NCBI GenBank assembly: GCA_944326585.1
Contig: CALVEN010000001.1
Coordinates: forward strand, 124,001-188,000
DNA from: Candidatus Gastranaerophilales bacterium
GTDB lineage: Bacteria; Cyanobacteriota; Vampirovibrionia; Gastranaerophilales; Gastranaerophilaceae
DNA: 64,000 nucleotides
Direction of reading: 5' to 3'
Each line of letters opens with the position of its first letter. The first letter of the stretch is position 1. Below the pieces are notes generated by a model. The model was given only the letters and a program-made list of their open reading frames with translations. It was not told where the DNA came from and did not search any database. Below are positions 4,622 to 53,358 of this stretch, in pieces. Position numbers and translations under genes: made by a program.

Positions 4622-4649
4622 AAAAACCTCCCTTCGGGGAGGTTTTTTT
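4622..4649. terminator. Rho-independent terminator between converging genes
   Basis: A perfect hairpin AAAAACCTCCC-TTCG-GGGAGGTTTTT followed by T residues, directly after the stop of the 678-residue gene. It reaches the last codons of the convergent ispE and could stop transcription in both directions. Confidence 0.9.
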
Positions 4650-5889
4650 ATACTTCTTTTACACCGTATGATATGGATTTCAGGTTGTTTTTTATCCAGA
4701 AACCTTTTTGAGGTTTAAATTCCATATCTATTCCGAAATAAGTTGAGCCGGAACCTGACATAACGGATTTAGGATAAAGTTTTTTAATCTGTTGTAACTC
4801 TTTGTAATCATCGATTACAGCCCATTCAAGGTCGTTGGGGTAAGCCTCTCTTGCCCCCCACCCTAACCCTCCCCCTCGAGGGGGGAGGGAATTTGCAGTT
4901 TCAATAATTTTTTCAACAACGCTTTCTATATTTTGAAAAATTTCGTTATTCCATATCCTTAAAACAATATATCCGGCGTTTTGTAAATATTCAGTTCTTT
5001 TTTCATCATATTTAATATTTTCGTTTTCATTATGTTGCCCGCCATCAAGTTCAATTATTAATTTTATCGGCTGGCATATAAAATCTGCGATATATGGACC
5101 TATCGGTTGTTGTCTTCTGAATTTTAGGCCGTTTATTTGTTCTTTTCTGATATATTGCCACAATTTTTTTTCGGCATCTGTCATATTTTTACGTAATTCT
5201 TTTGATTTTTCTTTTGCAAATTCGTTGTATTGATGAGAGTATTTTTTCCCTCCCCCCTCGAGGGGGAGGGTTAGGGTGGGGGGATTACTCCCCGCAATGG
5301 GAGGGTAGTCAGCTATTTTTTCCGAAAATTTTGTGTATGCTTCCTTTGCGCTTATGCCTAAATTTTCAGGCTTTATAAGCGAAACTTTAAATTCTTCAAA
5401 TTCCAGCGGTTCCAAAATCTCACCTCTGCCGGAGGTTTTTTGTCTGCCGCCTTCAAGACATAAATTCAAGTCTGAGCCGAGTTTTGCGCAAAGCCCGTGT
5501 AATTCTTTACGGCTTAAAGGTTCGTCAAATAATTTGTTTAATCCGTACAGCATCCCTGCAGCATCCGTACTTCCGCCTGCAAGACCTGCTGCAACGGGGA
5601 TATTTTTTTCTATGAAAACACTAATCCTATGCGCCGGAAGTTTTGTCTTTTCTAAAAATAACAGGCATGCTTTATGCACAAGGTTTTTTTCGTTATACGG
5701 AATTTCGTCACTTGTGCCGCTTAGAATTATTTCGGTGTTATCGCTTTTTTCAATTGAAATTGTCAGATAATCAAACAGGCTGATTGTCTGCATTATGCTG
5801 TCAATGTTATGATAACCGTCCTCGCGTTTTCCGGTAACTTTGAGCGTCAAATTTATTTTGGCGGGACATTGAATTTTAATTTGCTTCAC
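4648..5889 (-). CDS. ispE: 4-diphosphocytidyl-2-C-methyl-D-erythritol kinase (IspE) with an inserted DUF559 nuclease domain
   Basis: GHMP kinase of the MEP isoprenoid pathway, phosphorylating CDP-methylerythritol. The kinase is complete but split: residues 1-200 hold PAKINL (9-14), the ATP-binding GLAGGSTDAA (102-111) and the GSD motif near 138-140; residues 347-413 hold YPNDLEWAV and the MSGSGSTYFG loop. Between them, residues 203-346 come from a 430-bp cassette and include a full DUF559 domain (about 222-333). Without it the protein would be about 269 residues, normal for IspE. The join falls in the variable loop before the NDLE helix, and the frame stays open, so the enzyme may still work. 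The start overlaps the end of rsmA by 14 bases; ispF is at 41.9 kb. Confidence 0.9.
   Translation of the reverse strand: MKQIKIQCPAKINLTLKVTGKREDGYHNIDSIMQTISLFDYLTISIEKSDNTEIILSGTSDEIPYNEKNLVHKACLLFLEKTKLPAHRISVFIEKNIPVAAGLAGGSTDAAGMLYGLNKLFDEPLSRKELHGLCAKLGSDLNLCLEGGRQKTSGRGEILEPLEFEEFKVSLIKPENLGISAKEAYTKFSEKIADYPPIAGSNPPTLTLPLEGGGKKYSHQYNEFAKEKSKELRKNMTDAEKKLWQYIRKEQINGLKFRRQQPIGPYIADFICQPIKLIIELDGGQHNENENIKYDEKRTEYLQNAGYIVLRIWNNEIFQNIESVVEKIIETANSLPPRGGGLGWGAREAYPNDLEWAVIDDYKELQQIKKLYPKSVMSGSGSTYFGIDMEFKPQKGFWIKNNLKSISYGVKEV
4854..5283 (-). mobile_element. 430-bp DUF559-encoding palindromic cassette inserted in ispE
   Basis: Bounded by a perfect 37-bp inverted repeat (4854-4890 and 5247-5283). 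Each copy also contains a hairpin centred on CCCCCTCGAGGGGG. The repeats are translated as NPPTLTLPLEGGG on entry and SLPPRGGGLGWGA on exit. The interior reads as a DUF559 domain, a relative of very-short-patch-repair (Vsr) endonucleases: ELRKNMTDAEKKLW, FRRQQPIGPYIADF, then the catalytic-type ELDGGQH and RIWNNEI. Putative metal ligands are Asp269, Glu280 and Asp282 of the fusion protein. No target-site duplication is visible. Degenerate copies of the same ends occur at 32715-32810 without an ORF. That the cassette is mobile is an inference from its symmetry and dispersed relatives. Confidence 0.82.
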
Positions 5890-10332: not shown

Positions 10333-10386
10333 TTGTCAAAAGCAGGAAATTTTGATATAATAAACCTAAAAAGAAGGAGAGTTAAA
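10333..10386 (+). promoter_or_regulatory. Promoter and ribosome binding site of the first prepilin locus
   Basis: TTGTCA at 10333-10338 and TATAAT at 10356-10361 with a 17-bp spacer, then AAGGAG at 10374-10379 placed correctly for the ATG at 10387. This shows that translation is meant to start upstream of the poly-G tract. Confidence 0.8.
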
Positions 10387-10455
10387 ATGAAAGATATGAC
10401 TAGTTTAAATAACGGGGGGGGGCGACTCCTCCAGGTAGATATAGCAAGGTTTTAG
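10387..10455 (+). other. Prepilin leader ORF with 9-G tract (out of frame)
   Basis: Reads MKDMTSLNNGGGRLLQ... and stops at 10453. The tract is nine Gs at 10414-10422. With ten Gs the frame runs GGGATPPGRYSKVLGGIGLVKLLRYYG and continues without a stop into the prepilin at 10572. The promoter, ribosome binding site and leader are shared with the locus at 14445, so this is the natural 5' end of the gene, shown in an off phase or with a miscounted homopolymer. Confidence 0.7.
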
Positions 10456-10571
10456 GCGGTATTGGTTTAGTAAAGTTACTAAGATACTATGGCAAAAATA
10501 TCAAGAGATTCTTCTTTTTCTCTCGCAAAACAATACTCAATTGTTTTGCTCGGCAGAGAGCTCAGAATGAC

Positions 10572-11426
10572 ATGAATACAAGTCTGCATTTCAAGACCGA
10601 GAACAAAATTGACAAAGAATCAAATACAAATTATAATTCTAATATGATGAATTATAAATCAAAAACCAAAACCGTGAGCGAAGCTCACAGCAAATACGCT
10701 TTTCACGCAACTCACTCTACTTACGCAAAACGTGCCGCCTTTACACTCGCCGAGGTACTCATAACCCTCGGCATAATTGGCATTGTGTCAGCAATGACAA
10801 TTCCGACGCTTATTGCAAAATATCAGGAAAAGGTTATGGTTACAAAGGTAAAGCAGGGGCATTCTATTTTAATGAATGCTATTCAGCTTTATATGGTGCA
10901 GAATAATTGCATAAATGCTTCATGTTTGTTTGATACAAAAAAGACCTCAGAACAGGTTGCTGCAGAATTAGGCAAGGTAATAAAAGAAGCAAAATTATGT
11001 AAAGCAGGCGATGACGATAAATTTTGTCAACGATACTATTACAAAGGCAATAAGCCAATTAAGGTTGACGGCGTATATGGGGCAGGAGATTCACTATTGG
11101 GTACAGGTAGAATATATCTGCCAAACGGAATTTCATTTCAGTTTGTACAAAAATCCCAATGTCCAAGTATAGTTAGTAATCCGGTACGTGATGAAAATGG
11201 ATTTGTAATTGATACGGTCGAAAGTGTATCAGAAATATGTGCATATATTTATATGGATGTGAATAATGTAGAAGAACCTAATCAATTTGGTGCTGATATG
11301 TATAGATATAATGCCAAATTTTCCGGTAAAGTGGAACCAATGGATCAGAAACTTTTAAATAATGCATTAATATATAATAAACTTGAATACACACCTTATA
11401 ATATAGGTGATCCCATTGAAGAATAA
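10572..11426 (+). CDS. Type IV prepilin-like protein (pilin locus 1)
   Basis: Contains the class III-like cleavage and helix segment KRAAFTLAEVLITLGIIG near residue 55, followed by IVSAMTIPTLIAKYQEK, as in pseudopilins processed by a prepilin peptidase. The body has Cys pairs and the DVNN-x6-NQFGADMY motif, matching the DVNG-GPN-G-D motif of the family. The first in-frame ATG is at 10572, but the open frame extends back to the poly-G tract at 10414. The unusually long segment before the cleavage site is partly made of dispersed repeat DNA (QRAQNDMN; VSEAHSK). It is an orphan gene, away from any pilus assembly operon. Surface display is inferred from the family. Confidence 0.75.
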   Translation: MNTSLHFKTENKIDKESNTNYNSNMMNYKSKTKTVSEAHSKYAFHATHSTYAKRAAFTLAEVLITLGIIGIVSAMTIPTLIAKYQEKVMVTKVKQGHSILMNAIQLYMVQNNCINASCLFDTKKTSEQVAAELGKVIKEAKLCKAGDDDKFCQRYYYKGNKPIKVDGVYGAGDSLLGTGRIYLPNGISFQFVQKSQCPSIVSNPVRDENGFVIDTVESVSEICAYIYMDVNNVEEPNQFGADMYRYNAKFSGKVEPMDQKLLNNALIYNKLEYTPYNIGDPIEE

Positions 11427-14444: not shown

Positions 14445-14492
14445 ATGAAAGATATGACTAGTTTGAATAACGGGGGGGGGCGACTCCTCTAA
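14445..14492 (+). other. Prepilin leader ORF with 9-G tract (out of frame)
   Basis: MKDMTSLNNGGGRLL, then stop. Preceded by TATAAT at 14417-14422 and AAGGAG before the ATG. Nine Gs lie at 14472-14480; a tenth would read GGGATPLSQRSRWTRLTGS and continue into the downstream prepilin frame. The first 36 bases are nearly identical to the leader at 10387. Confidence 0.7.
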
Positions 14493-14527
14493 GCCAGCGT
14501 AGCCGCTGGACCCGTCTAACAGGAAGT

Positions 14528-15592
14528 TTGAAAAATGTATCGTGGCATGAAATTATTAAGGGTTTAGGCGGTACTGGTTTAGTAAAGTTACTAAGATACT
14601 ATGGCACTAAGGCATTAAGAGGCAACAGAAATGTAGGTGGGCATTACTATGCCGACAGAAAACATACCGTCGGGTTAGTAAACCCTACCTACAAGAAACT
14701 CAAGAGATCCTTCGCCGGTGCTCAGAATGACATGAATGCAAGTCGTCATTGCAAGACCTACAACGAAATTGACAAAGAAGCAAATACAAATTATAATTCT
14801 AATATAATGAATTATAAATCAGAAAACAAAACTGTGAGCGAAGCTCACAGTAAACACTTAGTGCCTTACTGCCTTAGTAACTTAGTATTTTCCAAAAAAG
14901 TCGCATTCACTCTGGCAGAAATCTTGATAACATTGGGCATAATCGGCATTGTGGCAGCAATGACAATTCCTACTTTGATTTCCAAATATCAGGAAAAAGT
15001 TTTAGAAAATCAATTTAAAAAAAGTTATGCAATACTTAATCAAGCATTGTTAAGTGCGCAGAGTCAATTTGGTTATTTGCCGAAATGTTATTATCCATGG
15101 GAGGGTGGAAATCTTACAGAAATGTCTGATTGTCAGCAGTTAACTGCAAACTTTTTAGCATCTTTAAAAATAACAAAGACGTGTAAGGATCATGCTTATG
15201 AAAATGGTTGTATTCCTGAATATAGAGGTGTAGATGATATTTTAAAAGAACAGCATAAGGATGATGAGGATTACGATGAAGATTACTGGCAGGATTATGC
15301 TACAATAAATTGTGGCGGTTTTAATACAGATAAGATATTGAATAATAAAACAGTCTATAATCTTGCTGATGGAACAATTTTATTTTTTTTCTATGGTAGT
15401 AGAGATCGCGGAGCAGTAATAACTGCGATGGATATAAACGGTATGAAAGGACCAAATAAGTGGGGATATGATTTATATGCCTTAACTATAAGGTCAGATG
15501 GCAATCGTTTCAGTTTCGGTTTTACCGGTTGTTCTCCGGTAGAAGAAGGTGGCAAGTCTTTTGACCAAATGTATAAAGAAGCTTTCCAATAG
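14528..15592 (+). CDS. Type IV prepilin-like protein (pilin locus 2)
   Basis: The frame is open from the poly-G tract; the earliest usable start inside it is TTG at 14528, which is unlikely to be the real one. The leader carries KGLGGTGLVKLLRYYGTKAL, shared with locus 1, then two pieces of translated repeat DNA (NVGGHYYADRKHTVGLVNPTYK from 14632-14693; RSFAGAQNDM from the GTCAT/ATGAC family). The cleavage/helix segment KKVAFTLAEILITLGIIG follows near residue 125. The C-terminal domain has Cys residues, DINGMKGPNKWGYDLYA and a final acidic tail. Probably displayed at the cell surface; function unknown. Confidence 0.75.
   Translation: MKNVSWHEIIKGLGGTGLVKLLRYYGTKALRGNRNVGGHYYADRKHTVGLVNPTYKKLKRSFAGAQNDMNASRHCKTYNEIDKEANTNYNSNIMNYKSENKTVSEAHSKHLVPYCLSNLVFSKKVAFTLAEILITLGIIGIVAAMTIPTLISKYQEKVLENQFKKSYAILNQALLSAQSQFGYLPKCYYPWEGGNLTEMSDCQQLTANFLASLKITKTCKDHAYENGCIPEYRGVDDILKEQHKDDEDYDEDYWQDYATINCGGFNTDKILNNKTVYNLADGTILFFFYGSRDRGAVITAMDINGMKGPNKWGYDLYALTIRSDGNRFSFGFTGCSPVEEGGKSFDQMYKEAFQ
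14632..14693. repeat. Inverted GTAGGT...CCGAC repeat translated inside prepilin 2
   Basis: Two 25-base arms, 14632-14656 and 14669-14693, form an imperfect inverted repeat beginning TGTAGGT and ending CCGAC. A related single copy (GTCGGGCAAGTATGCCCAAC) is intergenic at 51815-51838. Confidence 0.65.
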
Positions 15593-31582: not shown

Positions 31583-31681
31583 ATGAAAGAAATGGAAAAG
31601 GTTAAAACAGATATGGCAAAAACTCCTGATATTACTAGTGTAAATACCGGGGGGGGGGTACCATACTTTAAGCTTTACTAA
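31583..31681 (+). other. Prepilin leader ORF with 10-G tract
   Basis: MKEMEKVKTDMAKTPDITSVNT followed by a ten-G tract (31649-31658) and a stop at 31679. With nine Gs it would read GGGYHTLSFTKLFHILRYC, which aligns with LVKLLRYYG of loci 1 and 2, up to a stop near 31835. GATATTACTAGTGTAAATAC before the tract matches GATATGACTAGTTTAAATAA at locus 1. The prepilin 220 bases downstream has its own start, so here the leader is separate. Confidence 0.6.
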
Positions 31682-31903
31682 GCTTTTCCATATACTAAGA
31701 TATTGTGTTTTTACACCCCTGTTGCGGTTCATTATTGCTATGAACAAACAATATATGACGAATCGTCAATGCGTATTATTGAATTCACCTTTCGATAATC
31801 GTATTTTGAGCTGCAATAGGGCTGTAAAGACATAACGAAGAGGTTATGAGCGAAAAATAACCAAAGAAGATAGTTGTTACAAAAAAAGAAAGGTGAAAAG
31901 ATT

Positions 31904-32665
31904 ATGACAAAAAGATTTGGTTTTACTTTGGCAGAAGTATTGATCACATTAGGTATTATCGGCGTTGTAGCTGCCATGACAATTCCGACATTGATTTCAA
32001 ATACTAATGGCGCACAGTTCAAGACAGCTTACAAAAAAGCATTATCAACATTGAATCAGGCAGTATTGATGAATATTGCAATGGATGACACTGATTTTTC
32101 AACACTTGTAAAGGATACCAGTGCTGACGGTAAAACAGAAGGTTCATTAGGAAAGATGTTGACTACTAGAATGCAATCAGCAACAGAAATTTCGGATTCT
32201 TATACTACGGCACCTACTTTGACAGAAGGTACTGGTACTACGGATAGTCCAGCCACAACACCAAAGCTTTCTTATTCTGCAGGTGCATGTACTGGTGAGG
32301 ATAGTGATGTGCCTCCATCAGGTGCTAGCGGTGGTGAATGTAGCGATGAGGGGCAATATATTATTGAAAAAGCTATGAATGCAACAGTTACCGACTATGT
32401 AAAATTCTCATTTGCTGATGGTACAGCATTCTGGTATTATAAAGATGCAGAAAAATGTACAGATAATGAAGCTATTAAAAATAATTGTTATGGCTTTATT
32501 GATGTAAACGGTGCAACCGGTCCTAATACAGTTATTCACTGTGCAAATGCAGCATCAGGCTCATGTGGCTCATCAGAAATTACTGACTTGTTCCCTGTAA
32601 TCTTCCACGGACAAACAGTAGAACCTGCAACTGATTCAGCAAGAGCAGTATTATTCGGTAAGTAA
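31904..32665 (+). CDS. Type IV prepilin-like protein (pilin locus 3)
   Basis: 253 residues from the ATG at 31904 (AGAAAGGTGAAAAG upstream). Short leader MTKRFG, then the cleavage and helix segment FTLAEVLITLGIIGVVAAM, as in ordinary prepilins. The Ser/Thr/Gly-rich middle (about 100-145) is probably exposed. The C-terminal domain has paired cysteines (CTDNEAIKNNC) and FIDVNGATGPN, the family motif. The short leader shows what the normal form looks like and makes the long leaders of loci 1, 2 and 4 stand out. Confidence 0.85.
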   Translation: MTKRFGFTLAEVLITLGIIGVVAAMTIPTLISNTNGAQFKTAYKKALSTLNQAVLMNIAMDDTDFSTLVKDTSADGKTEGSLGKMLTTRMQSATEISDSYTTAPTLTEGTGTTDSPATTPKLSYSAGACTGEDSDVPPSGASGGECSDEGQYIIEKAMNATVTDYVKFSFADGTAFWYYKDAEKCTDNEAIKNNCYGFIDVNGATGPNTVIHCANAASGSCGSSEITDLFPVIFHGQTVEPATDSARAVLFGK

Positions 32666-52061: not shown

Positions 52062-53315
52062 TTAATCACCTAGGCAAACCGCCTGAGGAGATGAAAGGTT
52101 ACGGGCCTCGAGGTACAGGCGCGTACGGGTAGGGCCGAAGGAGCGGCGGTACGCGTAATGGTCAGGATACTCCTCGCCGGGCCAAATGCTGAAGTAAGAG
52201 CCTTGAGAGGCTGTGAAGCCGAGCTCTGCTACTTTGTCATAGTCTAATGTTAAACCTGATTTGTCTGTTTTGGCACCTATGCCTGATGTGTTGTAGACAT
52301 AGTTAGCTATATCTGCCAGCTGTGCCATTGTTGGCATTTTGCTAACACCGCCGCAAGTTTTAACAGCACCTGCCCAGTAATCACTATCGTAATAACATCT
52401 TTTTATCCCAAGGTCACCTTTTAATTGTTCACACTCAGCTTTAGTAATAGGTTCAGGCTTAAACGGAGCCATAAAACAAGTACCGTTGATTTCGAACGCA
52501 CAGTTGCTTCCGTCAAGCGATTCTACGTTAATCGAGCGTAAATCTTTCTGCTGAGTGTTAGGAGTTTTAAATCCTGTGGTATCATAAAGAATAGCTAAAC
52601 AACTTGTGCCGGTGAACTGGTTAGTATAAGGATTTTCTTTACATTCGGGATTATATGCAATTAAGCCTGTAGTTCCGTTAGCAAATTGCACCCCTATGAG
52701 TTCGGTATCCCAATCATCTTGTCCAAAATTAGAGGCATTTTTAATTTTAGTCATATCGACTTCTTCTTCGTCAGCACCCCAGTAGACTTTATCTTCAAAA
52801 CAAGACATTAAATCGTTATTTGGACAAACTTTATTTATCTTAAAGTATTTTCCTAAAGCATTAACAAAATCCGCAGTAGACTTGTAACCTGCAAGGACTT
52901 GTTGAGTATTCATTTGTCTTAAGGCTTCTTCAAGTTTACGTTCAAAGACAGAAGCAGAAGTATTCCAAGCTTTATTTTGGTAATTCGCAACAAGCGTCGG
53001 AATAGTCATAGCAGCGACAATGCCTATGATTGCAAGGGTAATCAAGACCTCTGCAAGAGTAAACGCAACACGTTTTGCGTGAGTGGAGTGAGTGAGGTGA
53101 CTAGCGTGAGGTTTGTGTTTACTGTGAGCTTTGCTCACATATTTGTCATGCAGAACTTTACAAAGCGAACCAAAATTTCTGTCATGCTGAACTTGTTTCA
53201 GCATCTCATTAACTTTTTGAGATCCTTCGGCTATCGCCTCAGGATGACCTGTAAAATAACTGTCTGCGGAGGTTAAGCTAACTGCCCCCCCCCCCTCTGA
53301 GTGAAAAGTAGTCAT
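52062..53315 (-). CDS. Type IV prepilin-like protein with C-type-lectin-like, possibly hypervariable C-terminus (pilin locus 4)
   Basis: 417 residues as read from an ATG at 53315; the better start is the ATG at 53334 (GGAGG upstream), which is one G out of frame. The leader is built from repeat DNA (GHPEAIAEGSQKVNEMLKQV; VSKAHSK). KRVAFTLAEVLITLAIIG near residue 80 is the cleavage and helix site. The body has six or more cysteines. The last ~110 residues (CGGVSKMPTMAQLADIANYV ... AVCLGD) resemble a C-type-lectin-like display domain, whose final ~35 codons have aberrant base use. Surface adhesin role inferred. Confidence 0.75.
   Translation of the reverse strand: MTTFHSEGGGAVSLTSADSYFTGHPEAIAEGSQKVNEMLKQVQHDRNFGSLCKVLHDKYVSKAHSKHKPHASHLTHSTHAKRVAFTLAEVLITLAIIGIVAAMTIPTLVANYQNKAWNTSASVFERKLEEALRQMNTQQVLAGYKSTADFVNALGKYFKINKVCPNNDLMSCFEDKVYWGADEEEVDMTKIKNASNFGQDDWDTELIGVQFANGTTGLIAYNPECKENPYTNQFTGTSCLAILYDTTGFKTPNTQQKDLRSINVESLDGSNCAFEINGTCFMAPFKPEPITKAECEQLKGDLGIKRCYYDSDYWAGAVKTCGGVSKMPTMAQLADIANYVYNTSGIGAKTDKSGLTLDYDKVAELGFTASQGSYFSIWPGEEYPDHYAYRRSFGPTRTRLYLEARNLSSPQAVCLGD
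52076..52190 (-). other. Candidate DGR variable region at the 3' end of pilin 4
   Basis: Strongly GC-rich and A-poor compared with the surrounding AT-rich gene. Codons such as GAC, TAC, CGC, TCC, TTC, GGC, ACC, CTC, GCC and AAC fit mutagenised AAC/AAT template positions. Followed by the constant end AVCLGD. No template repeat or reverse transcriptase lies in the window. Confidence 0.5.
53181..53248. repeat. GTCAT...ATGAC repeat translated within pilin 4
   Basis: Plus strand GTCATGCTGAAC...CTCAGGATGAC. Translated on the minus strand as HPEAIAEGSQKVNEMLKQVQ. Same family as 42374-42439 and 51953-52020. Confidence 0.75.
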
Positions 53316-53334
53316 AGTGCGTATTTGCGTTCAT
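53278..53334 (-). other. Leader ORF of pilin 4 with 11-G tract
   Basis: Starts at ATG 53334 after GGAGG, reads MNANTHYDYFSLRGGGGS and stops. Eleven Gs (53295-53285, minus strand). Ten Gs would join it in frame to the prepilin (LRGGGAVSLTSADSY). Confidence 0.65.
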
Positions 53335-53358
53335 TTGTTTAACCTCCATTGTGGTATT

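Follow-up and report, generated by a model that had tools for sequence, protein, structure and literature searches.

The nine-G tract at the start of the prepilin gene at position 10387 belongs to a large family of similar loci, and very probably this family is a large, mostly OFF prepilin repertoire under slipped-strand phase variation, in which each locus would act as a translational ON/OFF switch. We analysed a stretch of 64,000 nucleotides (hereafter, the window; G000:C1:124001-188000) from a genome of 1.70 Mb in 16 contigs (G000). In what follows, tract lengths are given as the base and its number (G9, nine Gs), and a locus is called ON when its tract length places the start codon in frame with the prepilin.

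The layout of the locus at 10387 was observed directly, on the plus strand. As the earlier note had proposed, ATG 10387 is preceded by a candidate sigma-70-like promoter (TTGTCA-17-TATAAT, 10333-10361), which matched 11 of 12 consensus positions in a scan for the consensus only, and by a ribosome binding site (AAGGAGAG, 10374-10381). The start codon (10387-10389) opens a run of nine codons encoding MKDMTSLNN (10387-10413), followed by the G9 tract (10414-10422) and by a segment that is conserved across the family, CGACTCCTCCAGGTAG (10423-10438). At nine Gs the tract is out of frame with prepilin 1, and frame 0 closes at a TAG (10453-10455) after 22 codons. At ten Gs, a single open frame passes through a leader of 317 nt (10423-10739), open in the pilin frame only and presumably cleaved off with the signal peptide, reaches FTLAEVLITLGIIG at 10740 and ends at the pilin stop, 11426. 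Only one of the tract phases reads open into the type IV-like prepilin, whose body from FTLAEV to the stop (10740-11426) was identified by its sequence and by a profile match to the N-methyl motif PF07963. The stop reached with nine Gs and the continuous protein into the FTLAEV helix with ten had both been predicted in the earlier note and were confirmed; its positions were correct, although the feature extends to 11426 and has dozens of copies in the genome. Within the prepilin 1 leader, positions 10520-10558 hold a palindromic repeat, GCAAAACAAT...ATTGTTTTGC, copies of which lie away from tracts on contigs C2, C9, C12 and C15; dispersed repeats seem to have been taken up in frame by leaders.

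All four prepilins in the window (4/4) have a tract of this kind. The window prepilins matched PF07963 above the cut-off in the whole-genome search, and prepilins 1 and 3 did so in the protein scan as well. Prepilin 2 (14445-15592, plus strand) has a Shine-Dalgarno (SD) sequence and ATG, a G9 tract at 14472-14480 that is out of frame (in-frame length, ten) and the motif FTLAEI at 14906. Prepilin 4 (52062-53334, minus strand) starts at ATG 53334 and has FTLAEV at 53063; its G11 tract (53285-53295) is out of frame, the in-frame length being ten, and its SD, GGAGGTTAA, is complementary to the post-tract sequence TTAACCTCC. At G11, an out-of-frame ATG at 53315 that lacks an obvious SD reads open into the pilin, so the OFF state of prepilin 4 may leak. 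Prepilin 3 (31583-32665, plus strand) has a variant layout: its G10 tract (31649-31658) lies within a separate upstream open reading frame, which is 32 codons long at G10 and 83 codons long at G9 (ending at about 31835), and the pilin starts at its own ATG, 31904. This arrangement suggests coupling or polarity. Elsewhere in the window, a gene for a GHMP kinase (IspE-like; 4648-5889, minus strand) contains, in frame, a DUF559 domain (PF04480, E = 4.6e-41, residues 226-331) between TLPLEGGG- and LPPRGGG-type repeats; the domain looks like an insertion into the enzyme.

A G or C tract of at least seven bases was present within 750 nt upstream of 41 of the 66 PF07963 prepilin N-termini in the 1.7-Mb genome; chance alone would put about 3% of tracts this close to a prepilin. 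Runs of at least nine Gs or Cs numbered about 42 in the genome, where a first-order model predicts about 1.4, and four in the window, where about 0.05 are expected. With such runs far above expectation in both, the G9 tract at 10414 is not a chance occurrence. We examined the sequence around all 53 G runs of at least seven in the genome, and nearly all runs of at least nine are members of the tract-prepilin family; an additional tract gene, L089, has the prepilin motif FTLGEL. The genome has one match to the prepilin peptidase profile PF01478 (G000:C3:9221-9613). Assembly of the tract prepilins into pili, their surface display and their cleavage are predicted.

Homopolymer tracts also occur outside this setting. 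None of these tract elements was found on viral contigs, none of the sampled tracts of G226, a genome of another family, was upstream of prepilins, and the sampled tracts of G113, from the window's own family, were not upstream of prepilins either. The G226 and G113 tracts ruled out tract count alone as a marker of the system. The G113 loci L260-L262 have G tracts in non-prepilin genes, some of them in paralogous pairs that carry G9 and G10. At L099 (positions ~775-800; G000:C8:8629), a C9 tract lies in an opposite-strand gene that resembles, by eye only, a polysaccharide pyruvyl transferase and is possibly another phase-variable surface gene. Several contigs end about 4-130 bases from a G tract (C9, C15, C23, C26 and C31 of G024; C5 and C21 of G012), for which repeats, sequencing drop-out or mixtures of lengths may be responsible.

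The reading frames around the tracts, likewise observed directly, point to a switch. In the window's genome, between 29 and 578 nt separate the tract from the pilin, and the length of this region is 2 mod 3 at 31 of 32 loci. This is not the short leader typical of a type IV prepilin, so we use the name type IV-like prepilin; the N-terminal motif is otherwise normal. Stops in these leaders number 4 in 3,569 codons of the pilin frame, and 309 and 341 in the other two frames. The homopolymer lies 6 to 20 codons into the gene (the ATG being chosen by SD score), and the first off-frame stop comes a median of 3-4 codons past the tract; indeed, the post-tract consensus of the family, CGACTCTCCTAAGTAG, supplies a TAA in one off-frame and a TAG in the other. 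The 5' and leader lengths of the G153 loci both vary modulo 3 yet compensate each other, and the ON length stays at 11 (permutation P < 5e-5). Differences between orthologous leaders were spread evenly over the three codon positions (69, 88 and 80), while those between pilin bodies favoured the third (115, 93 and 252). The leader is therefore apparently selected for openness and not for its amino acids. We rejected the leader as a functional peptide on the same even counts, its amino-acid sequence not being conserved.

Next to this constancy of layout, the tracts differ in length and state. Among 184 open loci from six genomes in four genera, 26 (about 14%) were in frame, 114 were one base short of ON and 44 one base over. 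The genomes are mostly draft or metagenome assemblies, which may contain errors in tract length. The distribution of offsets gave a chi-square P of about 5e-16, with related loci not fully independent. The usual length is one step from ON in a lineage-specific way: G9 in the window's genus (ON at 10), G10 and C10 in G153 (ON at 11) and G13 in G024 (ON at 12). Lengths are more scattered in G157 (9, 10 and 11; ON at 11), and coding-strand C-tracts follow the same rule as G-tracts. In some genomes the spread is narrow: in G009, 17 of 18 G loci have G9, and in G153, 25 of 27 have G10, a tighter distribution than that of Campylobacter (9G 53%, 10G 26%; PMC6321876). Such narrow lengths fit tracts that mutate rarely or keep to a mutational set-point, strong selection for OFF, and equally the consensus calling of a mixed population. 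The earlier note had held that a uniform nine would argue against switching: nine is indeed the mode in the window's genus, but it is found neither at all loci nor in all genera.

These lengths also bear on a miscount of homopolymers in sequencing or assembly, by which the genes would truly be in frame. Homopolymers are error-prone, and Illumina sequencing has trouble at G-tracts (PMC9187656). A miscount would nevertheless have to be an undercount in two genera (g1, the window's genus, and g7) and an overcount in G024, in G- and C-tracts alike, and because the offsets run in both directions, an undercount artefact cannot explain them. In addition, the same assemblies hold in-frame copies at ON lengths, and orthologous G9 tracts recur across separate assemblies. 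We therefore consider a miscount very unlikely, including the assembly error that had been raised for the tract at 10414, given a one-base offset at different lengths, and in both directions, in different genera.

Differences between sister species, again observed directly, come from syntenic loci compared among G000, G012 and G009, where upstream identity was mostly 84-99%. Of roughly 37 syntenic pairs, which represent different species and not isolates of one, about one in three differed in tract length. State differed with length: L072 is ON at G10 and its G009 orthologue OFF at G9, the pilins being 86% identical; L062 is OFF at G9 and its G012 orthologue ON at G10; and L091 is ON at G10 and its G012 orthologue OFF at G9. 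A C-tract pair also differed (L086, C8 versus C7 in the syntenic orthologue), and sister-species orthologues agreed at L074, L082 and L056. Several loci keep about 95% identity through promoter, start and tract and then drop, among them the prepilin 1 locus (L052) compared with L143, where leader and pilin head differ between the sister species. In G000, G012, G002 and G011, a tract prepilin occupies the gap between a diguanylate-cyclase-like gene and an ABC gene, and G001 (at a contig end), G003 and G005 have a tract with its start there; no tract was found in this gap in G009, G013, G006, G007 and others.

Where both orthologues are OFF, pilin bodies differ at 177, 128 and 372 first, second and third codon positions, respectively, and this third-position bias indicates that OFF pilin bodies are maintained genes under purifying selection. 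The same counts weigh heavily against the tract prepilins being relics, that is, decaying pseudogenes, as does the fact that leaders of widely differing length stay open in one frame. As decay would predict, the assemblies show most of the genes out of frame and a few leaders with stops, but we find this explanation scarcely credible.

In G-type loci of the window's genus, the SD complements the segment that follows the tract, with a mean longest match of 6.0 nt versus 3.2 nt for shuffled and 5.35 nt for partner-swapped sequences. Many of these loci have the pairs AGGAGAG/CTCTCCT or GGAGGTTAA/TTAACCTCC, and GAGGATA/TATCCTC was seen in G003. This complementarity (for example, at 10374-10438 and at 53270-53350 on the minus strand of the window) could possibly form an SD-sequestering hairpin. 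It is absent from C-tract loci and from G024; we accordingly rejected a central role for the hairpin in the switch and retained it as a side feature. The complementarity would also suit programmed recoding, in which the DNA is one base off and RNA polymerase slippage or ribosomal frameshifting on G GGG GGG yields a fixed, small full-length fraction, as would stops directly past the tract and the fact that most loci are off by the same step, with lengths tightly held in g1 and g7. Recoding is, however, hard to reconcile with 14% of loci being in frame at the DNA level, with states that flip between orthologues, with the opposite offset in G024 (13, ON at 12), with a rule shared by C- and G-tracts, and with complementarity that C-tracts and G024 lack. 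We regard it as improbable.

We thus favour slipped-strand phase variation, and the earlier note's reading of the tract at 10387 as a contingency locus gains support from the 41 of 66 prepilins with tracts, the leaders open in one frame, the differences in length and state between orthologues, the minority of loci in frame and the purifying selection on OFF/OFF pairs. Translation would begin at a constitutive-looking promoter and ribosome binding site and enter a tract of Gly or Pro codons inside the part of the prepilin that is expected to be cut off, the length of which would change by one through replication slippage. In one phase, ribosomes would pass through the open leader into the prepilin, and the single-copy prepilin peptidase could process the product; in the other two, they would usually terminate a few codons past the tract. 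We infer that the tracts slip within a clone and that expression is lost in the OFF state. As the prepilin peptidase is expected to cut off the region that contains the tract, the mature pilin would be unaffected by the switch. With most genes one base off by default, a cell would express only a few of its approximately 40 pilins at once, and its descendants could turn on others. Tentatively, and with slightly less than an even chance of being right, we propose a default-OFF repertoire in which selection holds tens of prepilins one slip from ON, each cell displays a small random subset, and syntenic loci of sister species share promoter, start and tract but have had leader and pilin head replaced; it would be an antigenic-variation-like pilus system in gut relatives of cyanobacteria, with leaders selected only for openness.

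The best-known cases of phase variation through homopolymer slippage are in pathogens. In Neisseria, pilC undergoes poly-G phase variation, and pilE/pilS undergo gene conversion. The tract prepilins are similar in that a poly-G frame switch would act on type IV pili and pilin variants are exchanged separately; in Neisseria, however, the switched gene encodes a pilus-associated adhesin and the pilin varies by recombination, whereas in our loci the tract is in the prepilin genes themselves. Among gut commensals, Bifidobacterium breve UCC2003 has sortase-dependent pilus loci in which intragenic G-tract replication slippage has been studied experimentally (PMC9187656). The tract prepilins resemble these loci, where a G-tract in the first pilus gene parts two frames, the gene as annotated is OFF, and a single slip brings the frames together and switches the pilus. 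The study also reports a database tract length that differs from the one given by deep sequencing (PMC9187656). B. breve has two sortase pilus operons per genome, compared with about 40 paralogous type IV-like prepilins here, and was investigated with deep sequencing and strain constructs (PMC9187656), whereas the tract prepilins are known from sequence alone. The 'phasomes' of Campylobacter comprise 5-81 phase-variable poly-G/C genes per strain and are likewise made of coding tracts of about 8-12 bases, with a mode of 9G and many per small AT-rich genome (PMC6321876). Campylobacter tracts mostly target LOS, capsule, flagellar modification and R-M genes, whereas nearly all long tracts here serve one prepilin family, and a single lineage-wide OFF offset is a feature of the tract prepilins, unlike Campylobacter.

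Given the precedents in B. breve and Campylobacter, this kind of system is already known. Apparently new are the lineage, the use of nearly all long tracts by one prepilin family, an OFF offset of one base common to the loci, leaders that are long and open yet unconserved, and the exchange of heads at the same loci. In the searched open-access literature on Gastranaerophilales, Melainabacteria and Vampirovibrionia, we found no report of phase variation in the lineage or of this pilin system. If our reading is true, homopolymer switching governs most pilins of an uncultured, gut-commensal lineage of non-photosynthetic cyanobacteria. It would account for the many truncated or start-less prepilins in automated annotation of these genomes, and it offers both a test of an OFF set-point of tract length under selection and a route to pilin expression states from metagenomic reads.
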